From Xestospongia bergquistia (taxonomy: Eukaryota > Porifera > Demospongiae > Haplosclerida > Petrosiidae): 64,000 nt of DNA. The position numbers and the translations under genes are program-made. Of this stretch, positions 1 through 60,904 are shown one piece after another (within the stretch, counting starts at the first letter, position 1; each line of letters starts with the position of its first letter). The stretch is from NCBI GenBank assembly GCA_963965975.1, contig OZ014411.1, positions 3,829,001-3,893,000 of the forward strand, written 5' to 3'. A model generated the notes under the pieces. That model was given only the letters and a program-made list of their open reading frames with translations. It ran no database searches and was not told the DNA's origin.

Positions 1-5705
<5,705 letters not shown>

Positions 5706-13745: not shown

Positions 13746-13751
13746 GTCACT

Positions 13752-16592: not shown

Positions 16593-16608
16593 TTTGAGTG
16601 ATTTTTCA

Positions 16609-16619
16609 CCTCGTCGCCA
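16609..16619 (-). promoter_or_regulatory. primer binding site, tRNA-Ser (GCU)-like
   Basis: Two bases inside the 5' LTR the element reads TGGCGACGAGG. This pairs with the expected 3' end (...CCTCGTCGCCA) of metazoan serine tRNAs of the AGY class, over 11 bases. The tRNA sequence is from general knowledge. Confidence 0.7.
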
Positions 16620-16621
16620 AC

Positions 16622-16763
16622 TGTGATAACTTCGGTTATAACTTTATTATTCTGAACAAAACAATAACTCGACTTACATAAATAGAGAAACTATCAAAAC
16701 ACATTACATCATTACAAACACATTACATCACTAAATAAACAATGCATGTATAGAGTTACTACA
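16622..16763 (-). repeat. 5' LTR (element orientation)
   Basis: 142 bp, flanked outside by GTTAG, matching the duplication on the other side. It should contain the promoter and polyadenylation signals of the element. Confidence 0.95.
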
Positions 16764-19811: not shown

Positions 19812-20952
19812 TCCACACCCGCCTCAACTAGCAGCCACACCCCGCGCTCTAATTTTTGAGAAAGCATTATCTCTTCCCCGAACTTTGTCCTATACATTAC
19901 TAATGCTTTCCCACAATTAACTCACAACTGCTGAAACACAACCTGTGTCTCATTTCAAGACAGGATTTCTGAAACTCTACAACTACTGCCCAGCTCATAG
20001 TGCCTATCATAGTCAGCATACAATTAGGGTCCTCTGGTACTTTCTTTTTTTTATTAATTATTGAAAGGACAGATAAAAAAATTCGAAGTTACACGACTAC
20101 AGCCCCAAGAACCATAGATACTTCAGGTGAGGTATCTATGGAAAACAATTCTAAGTCTGCGTGGGCGTTTGTCACAACATGACAACAAAGGGTTAAATAA
20201 TCGATTCCTCAGAACGGAAATAAGTAGTGAATAATTATTACTGTTACTACCACTACTTCTATCATCTTTCTCGTGTTCTTTCGAGCATATAGACAATCCA
20301 CGACAGGAGTACTACATACATTGTAAATTTCAGGGAGTTATATAGTCTGATCCTGAGGCCAGGTAGTACAAACTACAGATAGAAGCTGATAAGAATCAAC
20401 CTTGGTAAGAAAAGTAATGTTTACCAATGGAAAAAACCTATATGAATTGATTATTGTCATTTACTTATAATATTTATATATAAATAATCATTTACTTGCA
20501 AAGCAAAACTATGAAATATCCTTGAAATAGTGTCATGCTATTTCATCCTAAAACCTGTACCTGGTTTTAAAAAGACAATGTATAGTTATCCCTTTTTGTT
20601 AGAGCATTATAAGGCTGACTTTGGAAGACTAATGACCCTATACCATATTTATAAATGAATGGTACTTAGTTTAAAGATGCCAATGATGTACACAATGTTT
20701 ATATATCCCTAAACTAACCTTAAGGTGGTAGTATTCAGTTTATATATCTTTAAAGATAACAGATGTTGTTATGCTATCAACTGCTGATTATAAGGTTAAA
20801 GTGCAGTAATATTACAAGATATGCATATCAGAAAGTCTCACTATTTCAACTATGAATATTAACTCACACCCAGAAATCCTTAAAGTTCTATATAATGATA
20901 ACTTGTTTGTAGAACATTGAAGATAAAATATAAATTGAAATTATTTTTTCAG
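19812..20952. other. intergenic DNA and probable 5' leader of the glycosyltransferase gene
   Basis: No protein gene is supported. A good donor (CTTG|GTAAGA at 20404/20405) and an acceptor (TTATTTTTTCAG ending at 20952) frame a likely intron in the 5' untranslated region of the next gene. Confidence 0.45.
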
Positions 20953-20971
20953 ATCCCTTATTACAAAAAAA

Positions 20972-22579
20972 ATGCATCTTGTGATCTTACATGGTTACTT
21001 GCTACGTGGTACTGGTTCTAATGTCTACACAGCCAATGTTGCTGAAACCTGGAAGAACCAAGGTCATGCTGTGACTGTCGTTTGTCAAGACCACTTAGCA
21101 AATACACTTCCATTTGTGGATGAATTGATTGTCGGTACAGATAACATTCCTTCCACTCCTCCAGCCAATGGTACAGTTAGGGTGGTTGTTCCTGATATTG
21201 GTGGATTACTGCTCGTGTATAACTATGATCGTTATGAGGGTTTTGAGGTCAAAACCATGCGTGAATGTAGTCTTAAGGAAATCGATGCACATATTGAGTT
21301 GACTGTTAAAGGACTCAAGCGTGTGATAGCTCAAGGTGTTGATAGGATACTCACAAATCATACAATTTTGAGTCCTGTCATTGCTAGTAGAGCTTGTCAA
21401 GATACCACAATCCCATATGATGTTAAAATTCATGGAAGTAGCATTACTTTCTCAATCAAACCACGTCCTGAGCTTAAGCATTACGCCATTGAAGGTTTAA
21501 GAAGCTGCCACAAAATCATTGTCGGTAGCACTTACTCTAAAAAATTGTTAATGGAAACATTAAATGAAGACAGTCAGTCCCTTAGACTAGAGCAAAAGAT
21601 TGTCCTTATACCATGTGGAATGAATCCTAGTGTATTTAAACTAGCAGATGGAATATTTAAAAATCAAACACGATTTTTAGCAAATGTCCAAACGTTTATT
21701 CAGAAACGGCCAAATGGCAGAAATGCTCAAAGTGTCACACTTCCTTTGTCCTCCTCTCCTTCTTTAGAGAAAGACCTGACAACGTTAGCCAATACCTATG
21801 ACCAGAATGCTGTAGATGCAGATTTATTGGGACGCTGGATTACTATCGAAGAAGGCGAACCAGTTCTTTGCTATTTTGGGAAATTCCTGAACACAAAGGG
21901 AGTGGGAGAAATAGTTGCAAGTATTCCTTCAATTCTTGTTAAGGTTCCAAATATCCGAGTGATACTTGTAGGCTTTGGCAATTATCGTGAGCACATAGAA
22001 GGAATGCTAAGTGCCATGAAGAGTGGAGATATGAATGCCTTTAAAGCTTATGCCTATGCCGGTGACTTTGTTGACAACATTCCAGATGACTTGCTTAAGA
22101 AAATATTCAGAAAACTATCAGATGAGGAATTAAATCGAATTACCATTACAGGTATTTTGGAACATGAACAATTATGTGAGATCTTGCCTCTTGCAAGCAT
22201 TTCAGTTGTTGCAAGTAAAGCCCCTGAAGCTTTTGGAATGGTATCAATAGAGGCCATGGCTGCTGGAGTACTTCCTTTATGTAACAGACACACAGGCTTA
22301 GCAGATGTATTACAATGTGTAGAAGGGATAGAGCCAGAGCTTGGTAGTCTGATGGGAATTGAGACAAGTCCAGGTGGCATTCATGGTGCTGCAGATGGCG
22401 CCTACTTTATTGAGAAGTTGCCAGCAAAAGTGGAAACAGCTCTTACTTTTCTTTATCCAAATGGCTTTCAAGATGATTCAAGACGGAAAGAAATATCTCG
22501 AAAGCTCCGTGAAATTGCTGTGTTACATTTTTCATGGGATGGAATAGGCAAGCGTCTCACTGAAGAACTGTCATATTAA
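20972..22579 (+). CDS. GT4-like glycosyltransferase (535 aa), intronless coding region
   Basis: A GT-B fold, GT4 (retaining) glycosyltransferase by reading. The N-terminal Rossmann half starts LVILHGYLLRGTGSNVYTAN with a glycine-rich loop, followed by KIHGS and VGSTYSKK. The C-terminal nucleotide-sugar half has CYFGKFLNTKGVGEIV (about residue 300), VILVGFGNYREHI, and the EX7E motif EAFGMVSIE (about 418-426) followed by AMAAGVLPL. These enzymes move a sugar from an activated donor; the donor and acceptor here are unknown. There is no signal peptide or TM helix, so it is probably cytosolic. The coding region is one exon, unlike most neighbours, but a strong acceptor 19 bases before the ATG points to a spliced 5' leader, so it is a host-type transcription unit. 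The overall style is bacterial-like, which makes horizontal acquisition possible but unproven. Confidence 0.88.
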   Translation: MHLVILHGYLLRGTGSNVYTANVAETWKNQGHAVTVVCQDHLANTLPFVDELIVGTDNIPSTPPANGTVRVVVPDIGGLLLVYNYDRYEGFEVKTMRECSLKEIDAHIELTVKGLKRVIAQGVDRILTNHTILSPVIASRACQDTTIPYDVKIHGSSITFSIKPRPELKHYAIEGLRSCHKIIVGSTYSKKLLMETLNEDSQSLRLEQKIVLIPCGMNPSVFKLADGIFKNQTRFLANVQTFIQKRPNGRNAQSVTLPLSSSPSLEKDLTTLANTYDQNAVDADLLGRWITIEEGEPVLCYFGKFLNTKGVGEIVASIPSILVKVPNIRVILVGFGNYREHIEGMLSAMKSGDMNAFKAYAYAGDFVDNIPDDLLKKIFRKLSDEELNRITITGILEHEQLCEILPLASISVVASKAPEAFGMVSIEAMAAGVLPLCNRHTGLADVLQCVEGIEPELGSLMGIETSPGGIHGAADGAYFIEKLPAKVETALTFLYPNGFQDDSRRKEISRKLREIAVLHFSWDGIGKRLTEELSY

Positions 22580-28248: not shown

Positions 28249-28310
28249 AAGTTAGCCTTATCTAGCAAATCAGATATATACAGAACGTAGAACTCAAACC
28301 ATCTAAAAAT

Positions 28311-28982
28311 ATGGCTTACATAAAAAATTTCCTCTTCACGTCTCTTTTCATATTATTAGCAAACCAAGCTGTCAGTATGCAAGTCTGCAACAAGACCAAG
28401 TGTCCGGCGTATCATACCTGCGCTGATCCAGACTACACGATTGACCCATGCTGTGGTGACTGTTCAAAGAGTAAATGTCAATTCCATGGCTGTGTTAAAT
28501 TTGGAGCTCATGGACCTACTTGGCATCCAACACCTTGTTTAACATGTGTTTGTGAAGATGGACAAACTCATTGTACAAATATCTCCTCAACATGTCCAGA
28601 TTGTGAAGGACAGAGATATAGAGCTAAATATGTTGAAGGTCAATGTTGTCCAGTATGTGACTATGGAATTGCTAACGATAGTTGTGGTTTAATAAGAGTT
28701 CGTAACCACACCATCAAAGTATCACTGGACAATCAAGATGAATGTACTGTATCAGTGACTGAACATGGCTGTGATAAACCAATGTTTACAAGAAACAATG
28801 TTCGATATCGATGTAAAGCAATTGATAGTGTACATATTGTGAAGAATGTTTGTCGAGACATTGAGGAGTTGGAATACAAAGATGTCATAGATTGTATCCC
28901 AGAGGTTGTCCCAAATCTTTTTGTACCTGATTTCTTGAAACTTGGAAAGAGAGAATTGCCATGTTCATTACAACTACCATAA
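28311..28982 (+). CDS. secreted VWC-domain protein, copy A (223 aa)
   Basis: A single-exon ORF with a clear signal peptide (hydrophobic residues 5-20, cleavage near 22). Residues about 26-55 form a first cysteine cluster (PCCGDC). A VWC-like module at about 56-116 shows C..G...W.P.PC..C.C..G...C and the closing GQCCPVC. The C-terminal part (about 125-223) has six or so more cysteines and ends in a KR-ELPC segment without a TM helix. The NISS and NHT sequons suggest N-glycosylation. VWC modules often bind growth factors of the BMP/TGF-beta class or matrix proteins; the ligand here is unknown. The gene has its own TATA box. It differs from copies C and D at about ten positions. Confidence 0.88.
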   Translation: MAYIKNFLFTSLFILLANQAVSMQVCNKTKCPAYHTCADPDYTIDPCCGDCSKSKCQFHGCVKFGAHGPTWHPTPCLTCVCEDGQTHCTNISSTCPDCEGQRYRAKYVEGQCCPVCDYGIANDSCGLIRVRNHTIKVSLDNQDECTVSVTEHGCDKPMFTRNNVRYRCKAIDSVHIVKNVCRDIEELEYKDVIDCIPEVVPNLFVPDFLKLGKRELPCSLQLP

Positions 28983-35445: not shown

Positions 35446-35506
35446 AAGTTAGCCTTATCTAACAATTCAGATATATACAGAACAAGAACTCAAACCATCT
35501 AAAAAT

Positions 35507-36178
35507 ATGGCTTACATAAAATATCTTCTCTTCACTTCTCTTTTCATATTATTAGTAAACCAAGCTGTCAGTATGCAAGTCTGCAACAAGGCCAAGTGTC
35601 CGGCGTATCATACCTGCGCTGATCCAGACTACACGATTGACCCATGCTGTGGTGACTGTTCAAAGAGTAAATGTCAATTCCATGGTTGTGTTAAATTTGG
35701 AGCTCATGGACCTACATGGCATCCAACACCTTGTTTAACATGTGTTTGTAAAGATGGACAAACTCATTGTACAAATATCTCCTCCACATGTCCAGATTGT
35801 GAAGGACAGAGATATAGAGCTAAATATCTTGAAGGTCAATGTTGTCCAATATGTGACTATGGAATTGCTAACGATAGTTGTGGTTTAATAAGAGTTCGTA
35901 ACCACACCATCAAAGTATCAATGGACAATCAAGATGAATGTACTGTATCAGTGACTGAACATGGCTGTGATAAACCAATGTTTACAAGAAACAATGTTCG
36001 ATATCGATGTAAAGCAATTGATAGTGTACATATTGTGAAGAATGTTTGTCGAGATATTGAGGAGTTGGAATATAGAGATGTCATAGATTGTATCCCAGAG
36101 GTTGTCCCAAATCTTTTTGTACCTGATTTCTTGAAAGTTGGCAAAAGAGAATTGCCATGTTCATTACAACTACCATAA
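35507..36178 (+). CDS. secreted VWC-domain protein, copy C (223 aa)
   Basis: Full-length paralogue of copy A with every cysteine conserved: signal peptide 1-22, VWC-like module about 56-116 (CVKFGAHGPTWHPTPC to GQCCPIC), then a Cys-rich tail. The flanking DNA is nearly identical to that of copy D over a 3.8-kb unit, so these two share the most recent duplication or gene conversion. It is intact and expected to be transcribed from its own TATA promoter. Confidence 0.88.
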   Translation: MAYIKYLLFTSLFILLVNQAVSMQVCNKAKCPAYHTCADPDYTIDPCCGDCSKSKCQFHGCVKFGAHGPTWHPTPCLTCVCKDGQTHCTNISSTCPDCEGQRYRAKYLEGQCCPICDYGIANDSCGLIRVRNHTIKVSMDNQDECTVSVTEHGCDKPMFTRNNVRYRCKAIDSVHIVKNVCRDIEELEYRDVIDCIPEVVPNLFVPDFLKVGKRELPCSLQLP

Positions 36179-39269: not shown

Positions 39270-39330
39270 AAGTTAGCCTTATCTAACAATTCAGATATAT
39301 ACAGAACAAGAACTCAAACCATCTAAAAAT

Positions 39331-40002
39331 ATGGCTTACATAAAATATCTTCTCTTCACTTCTCTTTTCATATTATTAGCAAACCAAGCTGTCAGTATGC
39401 AAGTCTGCAACAAGGCCAAGTGTCCGGCGTATAATACCTGCGCTGATCCAGACTACACGATTGACCCATGCTGTGGCGACTGTTCAAAGAGTAAATGTCA
39501 ATTCCATGGCTGTGTTAAATTTGGAGCTCATGCACCCACATGGCACCCAACACCTTGTTTAACATGCGTTTGTAAAGATGGACAAACTCATTGTACAAAT
39601 ATCTCCTCAACATGTCCAGATTGTGAAGGACAGAGATATAGAGCTAAATATCTTGAAGGTCAATGTTGTCCAATATGTGACTATGGAATTGCTAACGATA
39701 GTTGTGGTTTAATAAGAGTTCGTAACTACACCATCAAAGTATCAATGGACAATCAAGATGAATGTACTGTATCAGTGACTGAACATAGCTGTGATAAACC
39801 AATGTTTACAAGAAACAATGTTCGATATCGATGTAAAGCAATTGATAGTGTACATAATGTGAAGAATGTATGTGGAGACATTGAGAAGTTGGAATATAGA
39901 GATGTCATAGATTGTATCCCAGAGGTTGTCCCAAATCTTTTTGTACCTGATTTCTTGAAAGTTGGCAAAAGAGAATTGCCATGTTCATTACAACTACCAT
40001 AA
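39331..40002 (+). CDS. secreted VWC-domain protein, copy D (223 aa)
   Basis: Full-length paralogue with all cysteines kept. Differences from copy C are few (for example NTC for HTC, HAPTW for HGPTW, NYT for NHT, EHSC for EHGC, GDIEKL for RDIEEL), and most lie in the VWC loop and C-terminal tail. The NYT change keeps the glycosylation sequon. Signal peptide and promoter are as in copy C. Confidence 0.88.
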   Translation: MAYIKYLLFTSLFILLANQAVSMQVCNKAKCPAYNTCADPDYTIDPCCGDCSKSKCQFHGCVKFGAHAPTWHPTPCLTCVCKDGQTHCTNISSTCPDCEGQRYRAKYLEGQCCPICDYGIANDSCGLIRVRNYTIKVSMDNQDECTVSVTEHSCDKPMFTRNNVRYRCKAIDSVHNVKNVCGDIEKLEYRDVIDCIPEVVPNLFVPDFLKVGKRELPCSLQLP

Positions 40003-42214: not shown

Positions 42215-43665
42215 CTTTACCAGTTATAGTAAACATTATTTACTATAACTGAAAGATATCACCCACATTTAATATAATATGTAAATTAAGGCATTGTTAC
42301 ATTGTTAATATTACATTAATAAGTATAACAAAATTTGTCTATATACACGCTATAATAATAAATACACTAAGTAATACACAATGTCTTAAGTATAGGATTT
42401 AACCAAATGTCAGTAATGACAGTAAAGTACATGAAAACAACAAGTTGTCTACAAGATGGTCAAGATCATTGATCCTTCTTAGGACTGGCTACTTGAGACA
42501 AATTGCTATAAGTACTCATGGTGCAGTAGATAATATAATTAATACTAAATATTAAAATATTAATTAATACTTACTAGATGATTGCTATAAATAAGTCTAT
42601 TTTGTCTATTGAAGGAGATTATTTGTTGCAAATAACTTAGCTAAGGACTTGAAGTAGAGTTGTAATGATAATATAAATGTAAAATTAGGAAATATTTGGA
42701 CCCTAATTATACAATACGATAGAACTGATATAAATTATATGTTAAATAATTAAGTAATAACTATACCAGTTCTTTCTTATTTTGGGAGAGAGGTTGGGTT
42801 AACACTTATCTCTAATAATGATCTGACAGTGTCAAACAATAATAAAATAAACACCTCTAATATTACAATATACCTTGTTGTCTTACTAATAGTACTAATT
42901 GTAATATCATTTATAGTATACCAGATGTGATAGTAATAAATATCTTTGATAATACCACTAACTAGCCCTGAAACTCTTAAACATAAAAACAAGTTACTTC
43001 CTGTACACACATATATATGAATTAAACTCAGTGACTTCATTCTAATTATATTATTATCAAAAGTATCTTAAGACAGGTGTGTCCACTTACGATAATTATA
43101 TTTACTATTTAGAATGATGTCTTAAAGTCATGGAGAAGATCACATTCACCCAAACTGTCCTACATTTAACATAGATCTGTATTAGTTGTATCACACCTAT
43201 AATGATGTATAGACACAACACCCGAGAGCCCAAGTGAACATGGCATATAAATGCTATATTGCTAGGTGGTTGAGTTATGATAGTAGGTGGCTTATGAATT
43301 ATCAAGACATAGCATCTTAAATACATAATAAAAATATATATTATAAAGTGCACTAATAAGCATGACTATTGTTTACTGGTACACTTATCACTTATTGTCT
43401 TAACTCTCACATAGTACTTTACAGACAAGTCAACATAAACAATAGGCAGACAAAATTAGGTTAAACAAATAAATCCTGACAAATAGGCATAATTGTTACT
43501 TATTTCCATTTTGTTCATTGCCCCGTATACAACAATCCATATAATGATGATGGTATAGAATATATACTGTCACATTTAATAAACCTGCTATACTAACTAC
43601 TACTAATAACTAATTAACATCTGTCACGCCCTACGTCAAAAAAGTACGAGATATCCGGCTTCGCA
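42215..43665. other. last array spacer and boundary to unique DNA
   Basis: Unit-type spacer continues to about 43127, where homology to the pre-gene block ends at TCTTAAAGTCATGG. From there to the TRAF gene the sequence appears unique. No gene seen. Confidence 0.65.
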
Positions 43666-45054
43666 ATGGAGAGAGAGATGATCTTTGATGTTGATAACTT
43701 ACTATTTCTTTCTCCTTTTCCTGATTTCTTATCCATTAAGTGCCCAGTTTGTTTAGAACTACTAGTGGAAGGTCATCTTGTCAGTTGTTGCGGTCAACAT
43801 TTTTGTAAGGACTGCATATACAAAGTTCGAGTTTGCCCAACTTGTAAGGCAGAACAATTTGATGTTATGTCCGATAAATCTCACCAACGTGCTATAAAAT
43901 CATTACAAGTTCATTGTGTAAGGAAAGATAAAGGATGTGACTGGATTGGAGCTATTGTCAACCTAGAAATTCACTTGAAAAATGAATGTCAATACCGGTT
44001 AGTTGAATGTAGCAACCGATGCGGCACTTCTATCATTTCTTGTCTACTGAAGCACCATCAGCAAGAAACCTGCCCAAAACGCAAATATAAGTGTCCATAT
44101 TGTTCACTTGTTTCAACTTATGATGAAATTACAGAGACGCACATCGACTTGTGTCCATTAGCACCTGTTAAATGTCAAAATGGATGTCACAAAACAATAA
44201 AAAGAAAAGAACTACAACATCATACACAGCTAGATTGCCCATTTCAAGATGTTGCATGTGATTTCAATGTTGTTGGTTGTAGACACAAACCACAGAGACA
44301 AGACCTCGAGCAACACATAAACAATGATTGTCCAGTGCATTTAAATCTAGTTATGAAGACTGTCAAACAACAAGAAAAATTGATACAGGACCTTGTTGAG
44401 AAAGTTTATGTTCTGGAAGAGGAAAACAAACAGATTAAAGTTTTGCTTAAAGGTCTTGCTGACAATAAACGTAGTGATATTTTAAGCTTCAAGACAGACA
44501 CAACTGTCAACGTTGGGCAAAAAGAGTCTCAAGGTCTAAAAGTCAATGAAGCAAGCTATAAACAAAAATCCAAACTATCACGGCCTATTTCAGTAGTACA
44601 TTGTAGGCAGTCATTGAGTAATTTCAATCGTCACAAACTGGAAAATACCACTTTCACATTAAGTTCTTTCAATGTTGGTGTTACAGAGCATCGCATGGCT
44701 CTTCATATTGTTCCCAATGGCCAAGGTAAAGGTTTGGGAACTCATGTTTCAGTTTTTGTTAGACTTGTGAGAATTTCTGACTGTTGTGCTAGCCATCTTC
44801 AATGGCCTTTTCGAGGATATGTTAAAATAAGACTTGTGAATCAAGGTAATGACTTTAACCATATTGTGGCTACAATACACTATGATGATAATACCCCTGA
44901 TTTATGTGCTCTTAATCCTATGGATAGCCAATTTTCTCATCCTCATGGTATTGAAAGATTCATTCCACACAAGCTTCTTCAAACACGTAATGCTCAATAC
45001 TTGAAACAAGACAGGATCATTTTTGAAGTTGTTGAAGCATCTGTTTCCATATAA
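43666..45054 (+). CDS. TRAF-family RING/zinc-finger protein (462 aa), single exon
   Basis: A RING finger at about 26-60 (CPVCLELL, CCGQHFCKDC, CPTC) is followed by TRAF-type zinc fingers at about 80-225 (repeating C-x-H-C patterns such as CDWIG, HLKNEC, CPYC, HHTQLDC). A coiled coil lies at about 225-260 (EKLIQDLVEKVYVLEEENKQ). The C-terminal MATH/TRAF-C region at about 310-460 includes MALHIVPNGQGKGLGTHVSV and FEVVEA. RING-TRAF proteins act as ubiquitin ligases and adaptors downstream of TNF and Toll-type receptors in the cytoplasm. The length fits the family. The lack of introns suggests a retrogene origin or the intron loss common in expanded sponge TRAFs. It lies between the VWC array and the CHAT/Death module. 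Confidence 0.93.
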   Translation: MEREMIFDVDNLLFLSPFPDFLSIKCPVCLELLVEGHLVSCCGQHFCKDCIYKVRVCPTCKAEQFDVMSDKSHQRAIKSLQVHCVRKDKGCDWIGAIVNLEIHLKNECQYRLVECSNRCGTSIISCLLKHHQQETCPKRKYKCPYCSLVSTYDEITETHIDLCPLAPVKCQNGCHKTIKRKELQHHTQLDCPFQDVACDFNVVGCRHKPQRQDLEQHINNDCPVHLNLVMKTVKQQEKLIQDLVEKVYVLEEENKQIKVLLKGLADNKRSDILSFKTDTTVNVGQKESQGLKVNEASYKQKSKLSRPISVVHCRQSLSNFNRHKLENTTFTLSSFNVGVTEHRMALHIVPNGQGKGLGTHVSVFVRLVRISDCCASHLQWPFRGYVKIRLVNQGNDFNHIVATIHYDDNTPDLCALNPMDSQFSHPHGIERFIPHKLLQTRNAQYLKQDRIIFEVVEASVSI

Positions 45055-47064: not shown

Positions 47065-50000
47065 TCAAATCAAAGGTTTGTCCAAACCATAACATACAAA
47101 TGATCCCCAGTGTGTCCAATGTCTCCATAAAGGATCTAAAAGGAACTTGTTTTTAGCATACACTAGTGCTTGGGATGGCCGTATACCTGGGTTTAACAAG
47201 TGATCGTAAAAGTACTTTGAGAACTCAGCAGCAGACTCATCTTTAACAGGCCATAATGTACCAATGACTGTTTCAACACCAGCAGTAATGAATGCCCGTA
47301 CAAGTGTAACTGCTGCTTCTTGTGTTGCTAACAAACCAGCAGCTGAATTGCACATTGACAAGTATACTAACTTTGTACCATGTAGATTCATTGATGAAAT
47401 GGCTAATGATGGTAGCTGTCCAATGCTGCAATCAGGATTTATTTGATTATATAGCTGCCTAGAATAGGTATTGAATCCTGCAAGAGCAATGCCACATGAC
47501 ATGTTAGTGAAGAAATTGCCACGAATTATTGGTAAACGTTGATTTTGTCCATAACCATGAGTGGAGAAATGCATCATCAGTGGAGATTCAATAGCGAGTA
47601 CAGTACAAAGATTGGCATCATCCTGAAGTAATGTTTTCACTTTGAGACCACAAGTTGATAAACGATAGGATACAAAATCAGCTTCACTTTTGGAATGGTC
47701 TAACTGGTTAACAATAGGTTTAGGTGATTCAGAAATAACTAAATAGCTGGTGATGAGGTCTGCAACTTTATCAAAAAATGAAAGCCCCGGTTTGCAAAGT
47801 TGTGAGTCAAAATTTGGATTAGCTATGATATAACAAACTTGATCTTTAGATGTTGATGGTATAGACAATTGTGGATATTCTGGTTGATTTTTCGGAAACA
47901 ACTCGTGAACAGACGTCAAAATAACTACTGATGCTACTTCATCAAACCTTTTTTCTACATCTGTTAAAGGTAGCATCCCAAATGGAATGCAACCAATATC
48001 ACCATCTGGACACACATATATCTGTGTTATCTCATTAGTCAGCATGCTTTTGAGAACATCAGGTAAAAGAAGGTCGGACAATACAATCAACTCTTGATTT
48101 AATTCACTATCTCCTAAAGCACTGTCTTTTTGAGACCAAAATAAGCCTCTAGTCTTAGTCATTACATCAATTACAACAGCTACTTGCTTTCGTATCTTGT
48201 CAAAAGATAGATCCAAAATTACAGGATTCTTTCCTTTTTTAGTGATAACACAACATGCTTCCATGGAAGACTCAGATGTAAGTGGTACAAAACATACATA
48301 ATCAATTACTAGCGTGTTCTCATCGAGACATTCTTGTATTGACTTGTACTGTCTCCCCATTATTATTGAGAAAACACTCTTAGAAACAGAAGCTAAAAGA
48401 GCATCTTCCTTCTCCATTGCTTCTAGTAAGCTTTTTTGTAAGATTTCTTTTGAATCATGTTTTGAGGTAGTCAACTTATTAATATACAAAAGAAAAGAAT
48501 TAGCTAGTGAATTTCCTAAGCCGTATCGAATAAACAGAGACCGTATTTCTGTGAATAAGCATTTCCAACGAAGAGCGATATCTGCAAATAGCACTGAATT
48601 GGATAGTTTCTTGGCATATAATAATACCATTTGACGAAATGGAGCAATGGTGGGTGAACAATCATTAAGTCTTAAGGCATTTGACTCTACATTTCTTCCT
48701 AAAACCCGGAAAAATTCCCGTTCACCTCTGACAAGAGCATCAGTGGCACTTTCTCTGTCCCCAAGATCATTGAACAAACCTATAATGTAAAAAAATATAC
48801 TAGTTACTTTAAAAATACATAATCAAAAAAGAAACTGTTTATTGTGTACTTCAAGTATGCCTAGTATTATCATGAATATGGTTAAAGCTCAAATGCTTTA
48901 TTATAAAAAAAGTAAAACATACTTGTCATAGTTATCAATTCCTCAACTTCTCCCAATGTAAGAAACTCAATTGATTTTAATACACTAAATCGTTTAGTTA
49001 AGAATGTTCGTACTTTCTCAGGATCTTGTTGAATAAAATTTGAGGCATTTTCTACAGTTAAAGGATGATCTAAACCAGATGCTGGTAAGCTAGTAGCTGC
49101 TGGTTGAAGGACATTGCAATTAATATTATGTAAAGTTTGTTCAACAAGGACTTTATTTTTGACGTAATCAAGAAAATCTTTGGGATATTTAGCAATTTTT
49201 TTTTCAAGTTTACTATAGTAAAGCTTTATGGTCTCGATTTCCAAAGGAGTCAACTTGTATAAACGGCCAATATAAGAATCTAAAATTGCACATAGTCGTC
49301 CAATATGAAAATGACAAAACTCATCAGTATTAAGTAGAGAAGATTCAAATAGAGGAATAAGAGCTCGATTCATTAGCTCTGCAGCATGATGGCCTGAATT
49401 AGATTCTGTTAAAATGTTAGTACGATTTAATACAACAAGCACTGCTAAACCTAGAATTGGTCGAAGTACTAAGTACAAGCTAGAATTGACTTCTTTTTCT
49501 AGAAATAAGATGAAAGATTCAGTACGATTTGTTAATTCTTTATTAAACTTTTCTCTTTGTGTTTCCTCGACAACTTCAGGATAGATATCTACAATTAGGT
49601 TAGCACCCCACTCTTTAATTAACGGATGAACTGGTTCACCAAAGCACGTCAGTACCTCTTCAATTTGTTCGGCACAGGCTGCTAAACATTGTTTAGCAGT
49701 CACATTATTAAGTGGCTGTTCCCCACTAAGTGATCGCATTAGATGAATAAGAACATTAAGATATTTTTGTGAAAGTATGTGAATACCACATGGAAGCTCA
49801 ATATTTCCTTCTGGTAGCTGATTAATCAACTGATTGGCCTCAAACCAATGCTTAATAAACACCTTTCTTAAGTCATTACCAGAAGCACACTTAAAAGCCT
49901 CTTCAGCTGCTTCCATTACGTTTGGGAAGTCTTTCATACCTTCCAGGGCAATTATCTTCCTAAGATAACCTTTAGACCATCCCCGACTGTGATGAATACA

Positions 50001-50198
50001 CTGACAGGCATCGTGTAAGGCATCTTCATAGTTGCCTAGTTTGGAGTGTGCAGCACTACGATTACTGTACAAAGTAGCATTACAGTTGTCAAATGACAAG
50101 GCTTCTGTATACTTACTGACGGCTTCTGAGTATTTTTCTTGTTTGAATAAAGCGTTGCCTTCTGTCTTCAGAACGTCCACTTTATCAGCACCAGCCAT
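47065..50198 (-). CDS. TPR-CHAT caspase-like protease (996 aa, two exons)
   Basis: Exon 1 is 50198-48923 and exon 2 is 48779-47065. The 143-bp intron has GT (GTATGT) and AG borders and splits a serine codon; total coding length is 2,991 bases, in frame. The N-terminal TPRs (about 5-115) begin LKTEGNALFKQEKYSEAVSK and continue CNATLYSNRSAAHSKLGNYE. A long helical middle follows. The C-terminal CHAT domain (about 690-990) shows the expected catalytic pair: His in HFSTHG (about 833) and Cys in LSMCNSA (about 902). It also has the family signature TLWPVKDESAAEF, and WGSFVCYG near the end. CHAT proteins are clan CD (caspase/separase-like) proteases; TPRs usually bind partners or regulators. The substrate is unknown. 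The gene is divergent from a kelch-Death gene across only 82 bp. Confidence 0.92.
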
Positions 50199-50280
50199 TG
50201 TCTAAACACACCCAATTAACAAATGTTAATGGGGCGGTACTCTAATTCTTAACTCTTGATCCAATCCTTAATGAAGAGCT
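50199..50280. promoter_or_regulatory. bidirectional promoter, unit 1
   Basis: Only 82 bases separate the two ATGs. Contains ACACACCCAATTAACAAAT and a GC-box-like GGGGCGGTAC. The same text precedes unit 2, and a partial form precedes unit 3, so it is the conserved hub of the module. Coordinated expression of the two genes is inferred. Confidence 0.75.
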
Positions 50281-53200
50281 ATGAGTGGTGAGCCTAGCGC
50301 AAGATGGGGACACTCTGCTGTGACTGTTAGAGAAAAGATGTATGTATGGGGTGGATGTACTGCTGATATGCCCAGAGATTGCTCTAATGATTATAAGACA
50401 CAATTACTATCAAAGGTATTTGAATTTGACATCCAATCTTCTCAATGGAAAGCTCATCAAACAACTGGAGTGCCTCCTAAAGCAGTTTGTGGAGCAGCAG
50501 CATGTACCAGAGATGACCATAACAGAATATTCACATTTGGTGGTTACTGTGGACATGGATATCACTGGTACAATGAATTACATGAACTTAAGTTGCTGCA
50601 AGATCACATTCAGTGGCGTCTTATTGAATCTGTAAACAATGATGTAGAACCAACAACCAAACAAGATTGTGGAATTGTTTACTTTGGTTCTGATGATGAT
50701 GATATGAATGTTTGTGTGTTTGGAGGAGCAGGAAATAAAAGAGGAAAACCAAACAAGTGGGCTGTATTTGATGAGTTACATGTTTTCAATCTTGTTACTA
50801 GTAAGTGATTATAAATATTATAGTTGGTAAGTAACTTATGAATCATTCATTAATAAACTTAATACAAACATATACATTATTATAGCCAAAATATTAACAA
50901 ACTTATCAAATTTTAAATTGTAGCATTACCTATTGTACATGTATGTTATTTTAACACTAACAGCATGTTTCTCCTATTTCTCACATAGGTACATGGCATG
51001 TTCCTGATGTCAGTGGATCTTGTCCACCTCCTTGTTCAGGATTCTCTTTTGACACGATTGGTATTAGACAAGCTTTGTTGTTTGGTGGTAAAACCAATAA
51101 AGATACTGTCCTTAATGATGTCTTTCTTTTATCACTTGACAAATGGGTAAGTAAGTGTCTTGTATGTATGGCTTATCAGCATATGCTATTAGGATGGTGC
51201 TATAAAGAATTATTAAATAATAAATTAAATATTACTAATGACACTTTCCTCTCTTTATACTTCTTTTAGATGTGGCAAAAAATCCCGATGACATTAGGTA
51301 TTGAACTTCCAATGCCTAGAGAAAGTCATTGTTCTATTTGCATCGACAATCATTTAATTGTGATTGGTGGAATTAACTCAAAAAAGGAAATAGTTCCAGA
51401 CAGCTGGGTGCTTCATACAAGAGACCATACTTGGAAAAAGGTTGGTTTTGCATGTTAGTTTTGATTGATTTCTTCTTACAAAAATTTTTGTCTGTAGTTA
51501 TAATCGTTTTGATGATTGTGTTAAATGTTATTAGTAGGCAAGCAAGGGCATGTATAATTATTATAAGGGTGTGGTTTATACCACAGTGCACTCTAAAAGA
51601 ATTGAACATCATGTTTTCAAAATTATTGATAAAGCTCTTTGCTAAAACAATGACTTCTATAATTGATAAATTGTTAGAAAAGGCAGCTATGTGTGTAAGA
51701 ACAAACAACACAATTCAACTTGTTTACATCATATCTTAGCACTCATATTGAGCAATTTGACAATGTACATTCTATCCCCAAACATAAAGGAATTCAATAG
51801 AAACCAGTATATGTTTCACATATTGCTAAGGAAAACATTGTTTGGACATATTATTCACATTTTATTCAGACATTTTTTAATATTGGGCCGTCATCAACTG
51901 TACATTTTAAATACAAACTATGTTGACAAAGCTTACACTTTTATATTTCATAATTATAGATAAATATTCCTGATGAAATGACAAAACGAGTTTCACCAAT
52001 AGTAGTTGCTGAAAAATGTAATGAAAACTATCAAATAATTATATTTGGAGGTCTCGTGAATTGGATAACTGGGACGTTTCACTCTGAACAGCCCATGATA
52101 TCCAAGACAATTGTATTATCTCTAGGTAATAAGTAATTATATCTTTGATTTGTGTTCATTACCTACATTCACTTACTTTATGTGATGATTAAAGTTACTG
52201 ACTTTCTCATTATTGTTTTAAAAATTGCATTTTTGTTAGATGTTTCAGAAGATGTTATGCTATCATATTGGTATGACTTGACTCCACTGGGAATTCAGAT
52301 TAAGCAACTATCAAAGGATTTAATAGAAACAAGAGAAATTCTTGGCACAACACGAGCTAAATTAGACAAATTGGAATCAACATTGTCAAGACATACTGTG
52401 TCTTCTCAAGGGAGCATTGAATTAGAAATTGACAGCTATCAAGATGAAGATGAACAACATGTAAGTTTTAACTAAAGACATAACTATTTGTCTTTAGTTA
52501 CAGTATCATAATGGCATGTACTAAAGTGATATTTTTATGTCTTTTCTCAATACTCCATGTCTGTTAATTGTCTTTATTGTCAATTCTTGATAGAGTGTAG
52601 ATACATGAACATGACATACACTCAAATGATGCTACAAGTTATTTTCACTTCAGTTAATTAACCTAATTTATTAACAAACTAATTATTGAACCTCTCCTTT
52701 TACTCATTTAATTTATTAACTTCTTTGTACCCCTTCACTGAGCCACTTTGGTACACATGTTTGAGCTCTTAAAGTGTGTAGTGTTCTTATTAAGAGAATT
52801 AACTTTTTCATTATTTATAAGGGAAACAGTTATCATTTATTATTTTATTGAAGCCAATACCGTTTGTAGACCAGTAGCCTGTTCAAGCAACAAAGTGAAC
52901 CAGGTTGGAGGAGGGACATGGCTAAAGCCATTACATGGATCAATGCTGTTGATGATACTGACCTAGGTAGGATGCCATACGTTACCTAGTAAGATAATAA
53001 CTAAAGATATAATGTTAAATCAAGTGATTCAAGTCAATCCATTAATCAATATTGATTGTGGTGTAGTGACAAACATAAGTAAAATGATGCTGCTACAAAT
53101 CTCAGACTGTTGTAATTTTAATTTTTTTTACTAAATTTATTTTAAAACTTTTATGTCTGTTCATCCAGCTAATTGTTCTTAACCATAGCATGTGCACAGT

Positions 53201-53658
53201 GTAATGACGTGCTTAAGCTTGCTAAGATTTAATAATTACATTAAACTAATTGTTGTTTTTTATGAGTATTAGGTAGTTAGTTTGTAAACATTTTGAGCAT
53301 TAGTTCTTTTACTATTCTTTCTTTTCTTTTCTATATAGACACAGACCATGCATCTGATGTGCTTGAAGCAATTGGCGATATCAGTGAATGGAAACCATTT
53401 GGTCTTGCTTTAGGTCTCCATATCTCCACATTGAATAAAATTAGTGCTCAGTACAAAGATGTTCAGAGTTGTAAGTATGAAGTTGTGTCCGCGTGGCTTA
53501 TGAGAAAAGATATGGTTATCAAAAAATGTCCACCAAGTTGGAGATCATTAGTTACTGCTGTTAATGGTAATCTTGTGATGTACCCACATCTTGCTAAAAA
53601 AATAGCAATGTCACATCCTCTAAGCCCTGTTCTTCAAAGAGCTATCAGCACTCCTTAA
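50281..53658 (+). CDS. kelch-coiled coil-Death domain protein A (550 aa, 7 exons)
   Basis: Exons 50281-50800, 50989-51146, 51270-51440, 51960-52125, 52240-52460, 52870-52966 and 53339-53658 join with consistent phases (1,653 bases). Six kelch-type blades are suggested by GG motifs (YVWGGC, FTFGGY, CVFGGA, LLFGGK, IVIGGI, IIFGGL), forming a beta-propeller in residues 1 to about 338. A coiled coil follows (IKQLSKDLIETREILGTT, about 350-385). Exon 6 is a short linker. Exon 7 encodes a Death domain (about 446-535) with WKPFGLALGLHISTL, VSAWL and PPSWRSLVTAV, then a short tail. Death domains assemble homotypic signalling complexes in apoptosis and NF-kB pathways; the kelch part likely provides ligand or partner binding. 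No signal peptide or TM, so cytoplasmic. Shares a promoter with the TPR-CHAT gene. Confidence 0.9.
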
Positions 53659-53742: not shown

Positions 53743-54478
53743 ATGACTGAATTAGATTCTGTTAAAATGTTAGTACAATTTAATACAAGAAGCTAGAATT
53801 GACTTCTTTTTCTAAAAATAAGTTAAAGATTTGGTACGATTTATTAATTCTTTGTTAAACTTCTCTCTTTGTGTTTCCTCAACAACTTCAGGAAAGATAT
53901 TTACAATTAGGTTAACACCCCACTCTTTAATTAACAGATGAACTGGTTCACCAAAGCATGCCAGTACCTCTTCAATTTGTTCGGCACAGGCTACTAAACA
54001 TATTGTTTAGCAGTCTCATTATTAAGTGGATGTTCCCCACAAGAGATCGCATTAGATGAATAAGATCATTAAGATATTTTGTGAAAGTATGTGAATACCA
54101 CATGGAAGCTCAATACTTCCTTCTGGTAGCTGATTAATCAACTGATTGGCCTCAAACTAATGCTTTCCTTTCTTAAGCCGTTACCATAAGCACTCTTAAA
54201 AGCCTCTTCACCTGTTTCCGTTACGTTTGGGAAGTCTTTCATACCTTCCAGGACGATTATCTTCCTAAGATATCCTTTCAACCATCCAGGACCACAATGA
54301 ATATACTGACAGGCATCGTGTAAAGCATCTTCATAGTTGCCTAGTTTGGAATGTGCGGCACTACGATTACTGTACAAAGTAGCATTACAGTTGTCAAATG
54401 ACAAGGCTTCTGTATACTTACTGGCGGCTTCAGAGTATTTTTCTTGTTTGAATAAAGTGTTGCCTTAGAACGTCCACC
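53743..54478 (-). pseudogene. broken TPR stump of unit 2
   Basis: The minus strand matches the first ~270 codons of the TPR-CHAT gene (for example CNATLYSNRSAAHSKLGNYE), with deletions and frameshifts. A deletion right after the start codons changes the frame, and several further gaps (for example near 53800 and 54175) follow. No CHAT part exists; homology ends where the preceding kelch gene finishes. Confidence 0.92.
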
Positions 54479-54588
54479 ATATCGTTTATTTAGCGAGATC
54501 TTAATAAACGATAAACACACCCAATTAACAAATCTTAATGGGGCGGTACTCTAATTCTTACTCTTGATCCAATCCTTAATGAAGAGCT
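54479..54588. promoter_or_regulatory. promoter, unit 2
   Basis: Nearly the same sequence as 50199-50280, with an extra ~20 bases (TTTATTTAGCGAGATC...) on the TPR side. It is still expected to drive the kelch-Death B gene. Confidence 0.65.
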
Positions 54589-57500
54589 ATGAGTGGTGAG
54601 CCTAGCGCAAGATGGGGACACTCTGCTGTGACTGTTGGAGAAAAGGTGTATGTATGGGGTGGATGTACTGCTGATATGCCCAGAGATTGCTCTAATGATT
54701 ATAAGACACAATTACTATCAAAGGTATTTGAATTTGACATCCAATCTTCTCAATGGAAAGCTCATCAAACAACTGGAGTGCCTCCTAAAGCAGTTCGTGG
54801 AGCAGCAGCATGTACCAGAGATGACCATAACAGAATACTCACATTTGGTGGTTACTGTGGACATGGATATCACTGGTACAATGAATTACATGAACTTAAG
54901 TTGCTGCAAGATCACATTCAGTGGCGTCTTATTGAATCTGTAAACAATGATGTAAAACCAACAACCAAACAAGATTGTGGAATTGTTTACTTTGGTACTG
55001 ACGATGATGATATGAATGTTTGTGTGTTTGGAGGAGCAGGAAATAAAAGAGGAAAACCAAACGAGTGGACTGTATTTAATGAGTTACATGTTTTCAATTT
55101 TGGTGACCGTAAGTTAAAAGTTGATACAAATGTGATGTTTATGAATTATAAGTGATATATGTCAAAACGTGATCACTCTTTTTATAGTTGATATTTAAGT
55201 AACTTGCAGATAATTTGTTCGCAAATTTAATCCAAACTTATGGACTACTTAGTGTATAATTTTTTTATGCATGTTCTTTTATCACTTACAACTGCTTTTC
55301 GTCGATATAAATGCATGCATGTCCATAATTGTATACATACATTCCCTTAGGTACATGGTATGTTCCTGATGTCAGTGGATCTCGTCCACCTCCTTGTTCA
55401 GGATTCTCTTTTGACACGATTGGTATTAGACAAGCTCTGTTGTTTGGTGGTAAAAACATTACAGACTCTGTCCTTAATGATGTCTTTCTTTTATCACTTG
55501 ACAAATGGGTAAGTAAGAGTCTTGCATGTATGGCTTATCAGCATATGTATTAGAGGTGGTGCTATAAAGAATTATTAAATATTAAATTAATTATTACTAA
55601 TGACACTTTCCTCTCTTTACACTTCCTTTAGATGTGGCAAAAAATCCCGATGACATTAGGTATTGAACTACCAATGCCTAGAGAAAGTCATTGTTCTATT
55701 TGCATCGACAATCATTTAATTGTGATTGGTGGGATCAACTCAATAAAAAAAATAGTTCAGGACTGTTGGGTATTTCATACAAGTGACCGTACTTGGAAGA
55801 AGGTTTGTTATGTATCCACTATATAACTATTTTCTTCATACGCTAATTTTTGTCTTGTGTTATAATCATTTTAACATTGTGGCAATCAAGGCATAATTTT
55901 TTGATCCAGATCATAAAGATATGATTATACTTTCATTGATTACACTCTGTAAGAATTGAAAAGTATGATTTCAAAAATTTATAAACAAAGCTATTTTCCC
56001 AAAACCGTGACTTGTATAATTCATGAATCATTAGAAAAGGTGCCAATATGTGTGAGAAGAAACATCACAAATCAACTGTACTATTTAATTTGTATATCAT
56101 ACCTTAACACACATATCGAATACTTTATGTGCATTTTATTACCAAACATAAAGGAAAATAATATAAACTAATTTATGTTTCACATATCACTAAAAGTAAT
56201 TCAATTTGTACTATACACATTTTACTTAGAAATTGTTTAACAATGGGTTATATGGCTTGTCATCAACTATACATTTTGAAAAATGAAATGTGTTGACAAA
56301 ACATTCACTTTTATATTCTTGTAGATGAATCTTCCCAGTGAAATGACTAAACGAATTTCACCAATAATTGTTGGAGCAAAAATAAACGAAAACTATCAAA
56401 TAGTTACATTTGGAGGTCTCATGAATTGGATAACTGGGAAGCGTCACTCTGAACAGCCCATGATAGACAAGACAATTGTATCATTTCTTGGTAAATGATT
56501 ATATTTTTGATTCGTGTTCATTACCTTTACATGTACATTCAATGAAGAATCATAACTTTAAATGATGATTTACTGACTTTTTGCACGGTTACTTTAATAA
56601 ACAATTAATAGGTAACATGGCCGTGGGTAGACTATTATGGAATGTAGTATATATTTATGTCAATTACTCACTGTATAATTTGTTGGTATGTTATACATTG
56701 TAACAAATGACATAGTGAGCAATTTACTTAAATTTTCAATTCCATAATCATTAAGGCATGAAAACTACAAAATAATTGTTTAAAGTGACATATTAATTTT
56801 ACAATGTTATATTGACATCCAAATTTCATTTTTGTTAGATGTCCTAAATGACGTTAGGCTATCATATTGGTATGATTTGACTCCAATGGGAGTGCAGATT
56901 AAGGAGCTATATAGCAAACTAAATGAGAAATCAATAGAATTATTAGAAACAAGAGAAATTCTTGGCACAACTCAAGCTAAACTAAAAACATTGGAATCTT
57001 CTATGTCAAGACGTACTGTGTCTTCTCAAAGTAGTATTGAAGTCGAAGTTGATGGTTATCAAGATAAAGATATACAATGTGTTAGTCTAATTAAAATTAA
57101 ATTAAACTCAAAATTAATTAAAATTAATCTAATTAAAATCTAATTATACTAGATGTGATTTTCATCAATTTTTTTCATAAAATTATGAAACATTTCTTTT
57201 TAATACTTAGCTCATGCAGCAGGCTAAAGTATCCTTAGATAGTTCTCAACAAGGTGCTAACCAGATACAGGTAAGCACCACACTTTGTTCTAATGTTATA
57301 TGTGACCATCAACTAAACAATTTTAATAGAGTAACTATTTTGTTTGATAAAGCAACAACAATTTCTTACAATTATAATTTTCTTTTAATCTTTCAATTAT
57401 AATTATTTGCATAACATGAAATCAATTTTGTTACATGTAGCACGTTAAATTTTGAAAATAAATGATTGTATCAATTTCAAGTTGCATCTATGCTTGTAGG

Positions 57501-59209
57501 TGTTCATGTATCAAGATTTCATTCTTGCAAAACTTAATCATTAATTTTACTCTTTCTTTCTTATATCTTTTTGTTCACTAGCTATTATGTAATGTATTGT
57601 TAATCTTTGTATTAGTTATTAATTTCGAAGTGTCTTCATAAAATATCACTATTGAAAAAAATATTCTATTTATAGCGCCCTATTACTACTTCATACCAAA
57701 ACCAATAAAATGTTTCCCTTTTGAAGGCATCTACCCTAATTAAACAACAAAGTGAACCAGCTAATATAAGAGGCATCAGCAATGAAGGCACACAACATCA
57801 AGTCCAAAAACATGTATGTTCAGCAATAAAGCCATACTCTTATCATACTATTGGTGTTGGATGTTAGTATTTTTGTGATAAAATTTTAAGTTAGAGTTAT
57901 ATTTTGGGCATACATTGTGAGCATGATTAATTCAGAATAAAACATACTTTGACTCTTTCTTTTGTTATCATCATTTGACTGTTTCGTTATCATAATATAC
58001 TCTCAGATTTAGAGTAGTTTTAAAAGCTATATTTATTTTTAGAAAACACTGATAATTATAGTTCACAATAGTCAATAACATATTTCTTACTTGTAGGCCA
58101 ATAGCCTATTTAAACAAAAAAGTGAATCTTATAATATGGAAGATGCTGCTGTAATCAATGTTATTGATGGTAGTAAGCTAAGGAAAATGTCGCATAGGTG
58201 AGAAATGTTGATATTTTAAATCTACATTCTAACTTTCAACTGCTTGCTTTCATTCTGTTTTTGCTTAAAAGAATTCCAATTTCATAGAAATACACTAAAG
58301 TTAGAAAAATTGTTAGTTTAAGTGTATTAATTAAGTACAAAAAACTCAGAATAGAAAAGTAACCTACAAGAATTAAAAACTTCATAAACTATAATTGTTC
58401 ACATAGCTTGGGTATTGCAGTTTAACTTTATATTTTTATTATTTAAACTGATACAAATAGAATAAATCTGAAAGAATATATTTGTAAAATTTGAATTATT
58501 ATAGGACTATAGGGTATGCGGAGTGCACCATGTGGTAATGAAAGCCAATTGATATTATGTAGTTTAATTAAGTCCACACTAGACCATATCTATAGAAAAG
58601 TAAATATTTTTTCATAATTCAGATAGACATTGATGAAAATGTTATTAGTGGCTTCATTATATAATATATTTATTGTCAATGAATTGAAATAATGAATGGA
58701 AACAAAATTAATCTATTCTATCAGCATTACAATTGAATAAAGTAGTGTTTACCATCATTCCATATTTAAATACTGTCTTAACTAAATATTGACTTATACA
58801 TTTTCTATTAAATATTGATAGCAACAGCGAGAAAAAGGTGAATTATACTTTACTAGGTGAGTATCTTAACAATACCACTAGGTCACTTTCTTTCTGGTTT
58901 TCTACAGACAAACGTCCAGATAAGCTGGATCTTCAAAAGCTGTTAGCTCCTATTGTACATCAGTGGCGACCAATTGCTGAGGCATTGAAAGTGGATCATG
59001 GGTCAATCATGTCTGTTGAGAATAATGCTGCATACAATGATTCTGTTCGACTCTCACATATATTACAACTATGGATGGAGCAAAACCCGAGTTCTGTAAC
59101 TTGGGGTACAATTATAGATGCAGTTGAGAATCCTCCTGTAAATAATTCTGCCATAGCTAAGAAAATACATCTTTTCCTTTTACAACCTAACACAATCTCC
59201 CGTACATGA
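54589..59209 (+). CDS. kelch-coiled coil-Death domain protein B (613 aa, 10 exons)
   Basis: Exons 54589-55108, 55351-55508, 55632-55802, 56325-56490, 56839-57080, 57211-57270, 57727-57813, 58097-58197, 58822-58856 and 58908-59209 join in phase (1,842 bases). Exons 1-4 match gene A in length and sequence (exon 1 differs at about a dozen residues). Exon 5 has 7 extra codons in the coiled coil. Two additional small linker exons are present, and the last exon encodes a Death domain (about 517-605: LQKLLAPIVHQWRPIAEAL, LQLWMEQ, TWGTIIDAV, AIAKKI). It keeps the Death fold pattern but is barely alignable with that of gene A. The 51-bp last intron is divisible by three and stop-free, so retention would insert 17 residues. 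The role is presumably as for A with a different signalling partner. Confidence 0.88.
56634..56748. repeat. 115-bp foldback (MITE-like) in kelch B intron 4
   Basis: Ends are ATTATGGAAT and ATTCCATAAT in inverted orientation, and the interior is an imperfect palindrome (CAATTACTCACTGT ... CATAGTGAGCAATT). The corresponding intron of gene A lacks it. Confidence 0.7.
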
Positions 59210-60350: not shown

Positions 60351-60803
60351 TATTGTTTAGCCTCATTATTAAGTGGATGTTCCCCACAAGAGATCGCATG
60401 AGATGAATAAGAACATTAGGATATTTTGTGAAAGTATGTGAATACCACATGGAAGCTCAATACTTCTTCTGGTAGCTGATTAATCAACTGATTGGCCTCA
60501 AACCAACCTTTTCCTTTCCTTTCTTAAGCCGTTACCATAAGCACTCTTAAAAGCCTTTCATACCTTCCAGGACGGTTATCTTCCTAAGATATCCTTTCAA
60601 CCATCCGGACCACAATGAATACACTGACAGGCATCGTGTAAAGCATCTTCGTAGTTGCCTAGTTTGGAATGTGCGGCACCACGATTACTGTACAAAGTAG
60701 CATTACAGTTGTCAAATGACAAGGCTTCTGTATACTTACTGGCGGCTTCAGAGTATTTTTCTTGTATGAATAAAGTGTTGCCTTCTGTCTTTAGAAAGTC
60801 CAC
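60351..60803 (-). pseudogene. broken TPR stump of unit 3
   Basis: Matches the first ~200 codons of the TPR-CHAT gene and shares several lesions with unit 2 (for example the PDG/GPG change and the same loss of bases near the TPR end), plus its own deletion near 60560. The ATG region is lost. An open stretch of 68 codons (60597-60803) is all that remains of the TPR frame. Confidence 0.92.
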
Positions 60804-60903
60804 TCTCTTTTATGTAGCGCTATAAAGCCAATGGTCTTAATAAACGATAAACACACCCAATTAACTAATCTTTATTGGGCGTGGCTAATTACTCTTGATC
60901 CTA
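60804..60903. promoter_or_regulatory. promoter remnant, unit 3
   Basis: Retains AAACACACCCAATTAAC and TTACTCTTGATCC from the divergent promoters. The GC-box text has become GGGCGTGGC and the kelch start has been replaced by a minisatellite. Confidence 0.6.
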
Positions 60904-60904
60904 T

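Follow-up and report, generated by a model that had tools for sequence, protein, structure and literature searches.

Divergent TPR-CHAT and kelch-Death genes at one locus of the sponge Xestospongia bergquistia: a predicted protease beside a member of a kelch family with apparently interchangeable signalling ends

The window analyzed here is a stretch of 64,000 nucleotides from the demosponge Xestospongia bergquistia (assembly GCA_963965975.1, contig OZ014411.1, positions 3,829,001 to 3,893,000 of the forward strand), and its positions are counted from its first letter. It contains two real, divergently transcribed animal genes, one for a protein with tetratricopeptide repeats (TPR) and a CHAT domain, the other, kelch-Death gene 1, for a protein with a kelch propeller, a coiled-coil-like linker and a Death domain. 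An earlier reading of this DNA, made without database searches (hereafter the sequence-only reading), had placed the two genes head to head with starts 82 bases apart and proposed that they form a sensor-protease module; the arrangement was reproduced by hand-built models, as follows.

47065..48779, minus strand: second exon of the TPR-CHAT gene, encoding the middle part and the CHAT domain, in which His833 and Cys902 lie, and closing with the stop codon at 47065-47067 (spliced model; Pfam CHAT 1.8e-37)
48923..50198, minus strand: TPR-CHAT gene exon 1, N-terminal TPR, ATG at 50198 (spliced model; TPR_11 1.4e-7)
50199..50280, no strand: 82-base spacer between the opposed start codons, presumed shared promoter
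50281-50800, 50989-51146, 51270-51440 and 51960-52125, plus strand: first four exons of kelch-Death gene 1, encoding the kelch propeller, which most resembles KLHDC2 (spliced model, Pfam and PDB match)
52240-52460 and 52870-52966, plus strand: fifth and sixth exons of kelch-Death gene 1, encoding the coiled-coil-like linker (spliced model; coiled coil assessed by eye alone)
53339..53658, plus strand: last exon of kelch-Death gene 1, encoding the Death domain and closing with the stop codon at 53656-53658 (spliced model; Death matches of the exon and its relatives)

The TPR-CHAT gene encodes 996 amino acids in two exons (50198-48923 and 48779-47065, minus strand), joined in phase across a GT-AG intron and with zero internal stops, and kelch-Death gene 1 encodes 550 amino acids in seven exons over 50281-53658 of the plus strand, with six GT-AG introns, all in phase. 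The exon ends of all gene models were picked by hand for GT-AG borders and phase, without transcripts. A bacterial promoter scan of the 82-bp spacer gave no match, this type of scan not being applicable to animal DNA.

In the TPR-CHAT protein, the CHAT domain (PF12770) was matched with an E-value of 1.8e-37 (129.8 bits against a Pfam cut-off of 24), while the TPR matches are confined to approximately residues 8-76 (TPR_11, 1.4e-7) and the long middle part carries no Pfam assignment; neither a Death nor a kelch domain was reported by the Pfam scan of this protein. The motifs HFSTHG and LSMCNSA are present, and the His/Cys pair that the sequence-only reading had taken from them to be intact is borne out by conservation, as His833 and Cys902 (His421 and Cys490 of the exon) are invariant in 12/12 aligned CHAT sequences. 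The genome has 13 CHAT loci, 12 of which entered the alignment; C7:364455, which carries stops, was excluded, and C7:3057k and C15:4058k were represented by their open part only. In the PDB, the alignment profile matched separase (approximately 0.02) and, more strongly, a CHAT protein of bacterial origin (7.2e-6), aligned around the cysteine. Gasdermin-B and other weak matches of this profile (0.19 and above) involved another part of it and were taken as chance. Neither a single-sequence PDB search nor PADLOC returned a match for the CHAT exon.

The N-terminal part and the CHAT part of the window protein are both matched, in order, at seven further loci, the match of C1:6448k beginning only at residue 53. 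A quick tree, in which TTC28 itself is absent, separated a group of eight genes, including the window gene, from four other CHAT loci with a support of 0.989, the branch support inside the group being mixed (0.15 to 0.93). Many TPR matches were found in two of these four loci, the two that were scanned, and the window protein does not show the extended run of TPRs ahead of a single C-terminal CHAT by which a TTC28 orthologue would be recognized. Because of the tree separation and the TPR-rich scanned loci outside the group, the window gene is, as judged from sequence, a member of a divergent group and not clearly TTC28, and we regard its product as a predicted cysteine protease belonging to a small set of eight paralogues in the genome.

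The propeller of kelch-Death gene 1 is well supported (PF24681, 9.6e-49, 166 bits against a cut-off of 50), and the best PDB match of this part is KLHDC2 (6e-24 over residues 5-319). A KLHDC2-like recognition of degrons was considered and set aside, since the KLHDC2 residues that read the C-end degron do not appear to be conserved in the alignment. The Death domain (PF00531) is weak in this gene, with 0.038 for the whole protein and 0.0025 for the exon (18.3 bits against a cut-off of 22.6), and a single-sequence PDB search with the exon found no match. The exon and its linker have at least 119 matches in the genome, a number that includes two exons of the gene itself (best 150 of 277 candidates). 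Seven relatives were scanned: six gave Death matches of 0.0003-0.006, each under the Pfam cut-off, and the seventh gave no match. A profile of ten members of the subfamily finds CRADD, RIPK1 and PIDD in the PDB at 0.012-0.068, unrelated matches starting at 0.3. The Death domain of gene 1, below the cut-off alone, appears to gain support from these relatives and from the above-threshold Death domain that ends the neighbouring kelch-Death gene 2, described below. Of the domains named by the sequence-only reading, CHAT, TPR and kelch were recovered by Pfam, and its kelch-coiled-coil-Death architecture stands for the kelch part (9.6e-49), with a Death domain that is below the cut-off (0.0025) but supported by relatives and a coiled coil seen by eye. 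The Pfam scan of the kelch-Death protein reported neither NACHT nor LRR.

Downstream of this gene, the locus continues as a tandem series that the sequence-only reading did not mention.

53747..54466, minus strand: second TPR half, decayed and interrupted by stops
54589..58169, plus strand: first eight exons of kelch-Death gene 2, for the kelch and coiled-coil parts with extra linker exons (hand-built model)
58908..59209, plus strand: ninth exon of kelch-Death gene 2, with a Death domain from a different subfamily (Pfam 6.7e-7)
60352..60904, minus strand: third decayed TPR fragment; kelch fragments of unit 3 run from 63737 across the window end

Unit 2 (53747-59209) thus consists of a decayed TPR fragment and the open kelch-Death gene 2 (54589-59209), which has GT-AG introns and whose last donor was chosen over another GT as the sole one keeping the frame. 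Unit 3 has only fragments of both the TPR and the kelch parts, and further TPR fragments lie at C1:3903k and C1:3923k. A CHAT half was searched for beside the duplicated TPR copies and not found. The Death domain of gene 2 scores above the cut-off (29.8 bits against 22.6; 6.7e-7), with FADD as the nearest PDB entry (0.05).

The two kelch-Death genes are alike in 340 of 398 residues of kelch and coiled coil (85%), whereas their Death domains share only 16/69 (23%); since the alignment score of the latter (52) exceeds those of all 300 shuffles (maximum 48), the two Death domains are related but distant. Synonymous divergence (dS) rises along the genes, from 0.018 in exon 1 and 0.06 in exon 2 to 0.2-0.33 in exons 3-5 and approximately 1.25 in the last two exons. 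Neither Death domain is the other's closest relative: that of gene 1 is 36-50% identical to ten sequences from elsewhere and that of gene 2 47-64% identical to six others, with weak matches only between the two sets, each of which was gathered by searching with its own Death domain. Replacement of the 3' exons in one of the copies fits this divergence of the Death domains, and gene conversion keeping the 5' ends alike has probably also contributed, because of the dS gradient through exons 1-5. Fast divergence, rather than exchange of exons, may alternatively lie behind the difference between the two Death domains.

The real context of the kelch gene, invisible from the window alone, is a large kelch family. 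The genome search returned at least 134 kelch matches (best 119 of 427 candidates scored), from which 115 of the first-exon type were kept, with the exclusion of 19 second-exon or partial pieces. Their linkage was counted against 150 kinase matches (best 150 of 379) and 295 Death matches on nine kelch-bearing contigs, with duplicates dropped; the Death searches took the best 150 of 983, of 277 and of 887 candidates, so that the counts are lower bounds. Among the matches listed, 85/115 kelch matches are followed by a related kinase within 6 kb on the same strand (72/80 on contig C11), at a median distance of 3187 bp, 12/115 are followed by a Death domain, and 18/115 by neither. In 500 shifted controls, the means were 8.4 for kinase (maximum 33) and 1.9 for Death (maximum 7). 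On C1, kelch is followed by Death in 9/18 cases, against a shifted mean of 0.17 and with 0/2000 shifts reaching nine (103 Death matches, including a few duplicates), and on C3 in 1/1, which 19/2000 shifts reach, the length of C3 being assumed. The exon order at C1:6118-6126k is kelch, coiled coil, Death (3.4e-9) and ZU5 (6.4e-6), and at C11:1440-1446k kelch exons precede a frame of 446 amino acids in which a stretch resembling a coiled coil is accompanied by a protein kinase (2.4e-27). The kelch gene of the window belongs to a genome-wide family of approximately 100 genes whose common sensor part is apparently linked with signalling ends of several types, and the kelch, coiled-coil and Death or kinase exons would be joined in one mRNA. 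The family may represent an unrecognized kind of innate sensor.

Some features of these arrays were observed in passing. Contig C11 carries them at approximately 0.07-0.37 Mb and 1.35-2.30 Mb, where 72 kelch matches are each followed by a related kinase; the C11 kinases among the matches listed are approximately 62-100% identical to the query, most of them above 80%, and the kinase at C11:1766996 (minus strand) is identical to that at C11:1445224 (plus strand). Death-like domains are very many in this genome, as indicated by the best 150 of 983 and of 887 candidates.

Contrary to a dedicated pairing, a kelch match lies within 190 kb of only one of the 13 CHAT loci, that of the window, and the nearest kelch match to the other 12 is 193 kb away (among the matches listed). 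On C1, one of six CHAT genes is near kelch (P = 0.057, random shift), a borderline value for a locus picked for the very coincidence. A rough density estimate expects 0.27-0.74 of the 13 CHAT loci within 10 kb of a Death match, and TRAF-MATH matches number at least 150 in the genome (best 150 of 270); because genes of the Death, TRAF and kelch types are so numerous, such neighbours of a CHAT gene are not very surprising. A second CHAT-Death neighbourhood, C1:6443k-6450k, was rejected, its Death gene being real (2e-11) but separated by an intervening NNMT-like methyltransferase gene. Gasdermin, sought as a neighbouring substrate, had no match in the genome, and the control genomes were equally silent, so that its absence is not established. 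The TPR-CHAT/kelch-Death pair looks like a local one-off and not like a recurrent module of this genome. Of the module put forward by the sequence-only reading, the parts are present and the dedicated pairing is not supported, as it occurs at one of the 13 CHAT loci and the duplicated TPR copies have decayed without CHAT.

We propose that the kelch-coiled-coil-Death protein is a member of a large intracellular sensor or adaptor family with interchangeable output, and that the TPR-CHAT gene is most likely a separate neighbour and not half of a dedicated two-protein device; the probability of this reading is put at about 0.6. The KLHDC2-like propeller would bind a ligand, the coiled coil would cluster the protein, and the C-terminal part would set the output, namely a kinase in most members, Death in the present gene, and a combination of Death and ZU5 in one further member or more. 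Proteins with Death domains would be recruited as partners by the Death output, and the TPR-CHAT and kelch-Death genes, sharing the 82-bp divergent start region, may be co-expressed. Protease activity of the former and an immune role of the latter are likewise predictions. Sponges exposed to bacterial cell-wall material are reported to raise some Death-domain genes and lower some kelch-motif genes, and TRAF2 is raised in Dysidea avara (PMC6208332); those responsive genes need not be members of the kelch family described here.

Several observations weigh against the proposed reading. Two of the six C1 CHAT genes are within 10 kb of a Death match (P = 0.05, random shift, again borderline), so that a weak tendency of CHAT to neighbour Death is possible. 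The spacer is 97% identical over 78 bp upstream of kelch-Death gene 2, which is what coupling of the two genes predicts, though exon 1 of kelch is equally similar (dS 0.018). Kinase and Death matches also occur within 6 kb upstream of kelch on the same strand, in 42/115 and 4/115 cases, as a result of the tandem arrays, so distance alone is no proof of one gene, and the kelch-kinase and kelch-Death-ZU5 architectures were each read from unspliced exon order at one locus. Constraint on genes 1 and 2 is modestly shown, with a dN/dS of 0.64 over kelch and coiled coil (bootstrap 0.44-0.99) and of 1.82 in exon 1 alone, on 15 changes.

These values, together with the fragmentary unit 3, are what would be expected if the kelch-Death genes here were decaying, functionless copies of the family, which we hold to be very improbable given that genes 1 and 2 are both open with GT-AG introns. 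A dedicated module, in which a signal sensed by kelch-Death leads it to switch on the TPR-CHAT protease, or in which kelch-Death is the substrate of that protease, would account for the close divergent starts, the spacer kept in the duplicate and the intact His/Cys dyad, and has a precedent in fungal pairs of protease and substrate genes, in which a gasdermin is activated by the CHAT protease with TPRs encoded next to it (PMC12881547). It is quite unlikely, however, in view of the pairing at a single CHAT locus, of duplicates without CHAT and with decayed TPR parts while kelch-Death gene 2 stayed open, and of a TPR-CHAT protein in which Pfam reports neither a Death nor a kelch domain. The TPR-CHAT protein could instead have a housekeeping role, its CHAT fold being perhaps mainly structural and the kelch gene unrelated, since human TTC28 has the same architecture and is cited for a role in cytokinesis (PMC12314368). 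This is an unlikely explanation for a gene of the eight-member group set apart from four other CHAT loci (0.989), two of which were scanned and are TPR-rich, and for a protein with a short TPR match and a histidine and cysteine kept in all 12 aligned sequences.

A more far-reaching version of the proposed reading is doubtful, and we offer it as speculation. The approximately 100 kelch-coiled-coil proteins might constitute an unnamed intracellular receptor system, expanded in tandem arrays, whose single sensor frame is reconnected by exon exchange to kinase, Death or Death-ZU5 outputs, and at the present locus the promoter would be shared with a caspase-like TPR-CHAT protease executing, or controlled by, the Death output.

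The sets of intracellular immune-type proteins in early animals are large and poorly charted. Should the kelch-coiled-coil family function as in our main reading, a class of propeller-based sensors with swappable outputs would stand beside the NLRs, with outputs changing between tandem copies. The TPR-CHAT group would give a single animal genome eight candidate proteases that are not caspases, with an active site open to testing.

Two kilobases beyond the CHAT gene, the sequence-only reading had seen a TRAF-like gene, which is indeed there.

43618..45054, plus strand: TRAF-like gene with TRAF zinc fingers, MATH and a weak RING (Pfam MATH 5.4e-19, zf-TRAF 1.4e-15)

It is convergent with the CHAT gene, the two ends being 2.0 kb apart, and its RING match (0.011) is below the Pfam cut-off; it is treated as a neighbour and not as a member of the pair. 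Elsewhere, at C7:361259-365624, a TRAF-MATH match lies approximately 3 kb from the CHAT locus with stops in frame. Exons for SRCR and von Willebrand type D domains at 1894-4739 (plus strand) perhaps belong to one extracellular protein, and two adjacent long open reading frames at 12624-16643 (minus strand) resemble, by eye, a retroelement of gag-pol type. An intronless frame of 546 amino acids for a group 1 glycosyltransferase (4.9e-14) occupies 20939-22579 of the plus strand; this domain and CHAT are both reported as enriched in non-syntenic regions of coral genomes (PMC12314368). Three very similar small, secreted-looking proteins are encoded at 28266-28982, 35453-36178 and 39277-40002, the first matching the von Willebrand type C domain.

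TPR-CHAT proteins are known in animals, with human TTC28 and expansions in corals, and the architecture is reported in one or two copies for most non-anthozoan animals (PMC12314368). The window protein is like them in its N-terminal TPR and C-terminal CHAT and unlike them in its TPR of only about residues 8-76, its separate eight-gene group and the 13 CHAT loci of its genome. The remark of the sequence-only reading that it knew of no described metazoan pathway with such a combination of parts needs to be narrowed, as TPR-CHAT itself is described in animals; no described pathway joining it to kelch-Death was found in the accessible portions of the literature, in which few subscription papers were covered. 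With Csx29, the TPR-CHAT protein of Craspase, and with separase it has in common the His/Cys dyad of the CHAT/separase fold, the equivalents in Craspase being H585 and C627, for which likeness to separase is reported (PMC9729208); unlike these, the window gene is an animal gene with an intron, and its CHAT exon has neither a PADLOC nor a single-sequence PDB match.

For the kelch protein, KLHDC2 is the closest solved propeller (6e-24) and differs in that the window protein has a coiled coil and Death after it. A kelch-coiled-coil-Death or -kinase family is unnamed among the listed titles and openings of abstracts from a mainly sponge-directed literature on kelch with Death, kinase or ZU5, few subscription papers being covered. 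Death-superfamily domains are reported in lineage-specific expansions, with propellers in some architectures, in Amphimedon and others (PMC8195603). Those Death, TRADD-N and beta-propeller proteins resemble the present family in their lineage-specific expansion, whereas in the present family the kelch propeller comes first and Death or kinase forms the C-terminal end, kelch being unmentioned in the portion of that text examined. Sponge NLRs with Death domains (PMC12909245) are likewise expanded intracellular Death-domain proteins, from which the window kelch-Death protein differs in having no Pfam NACHT or LRR. The kelch family fits the known lineage-specific expansion of combinatorial Death-domain proteins, as in Amphimedon (PMC8195603).

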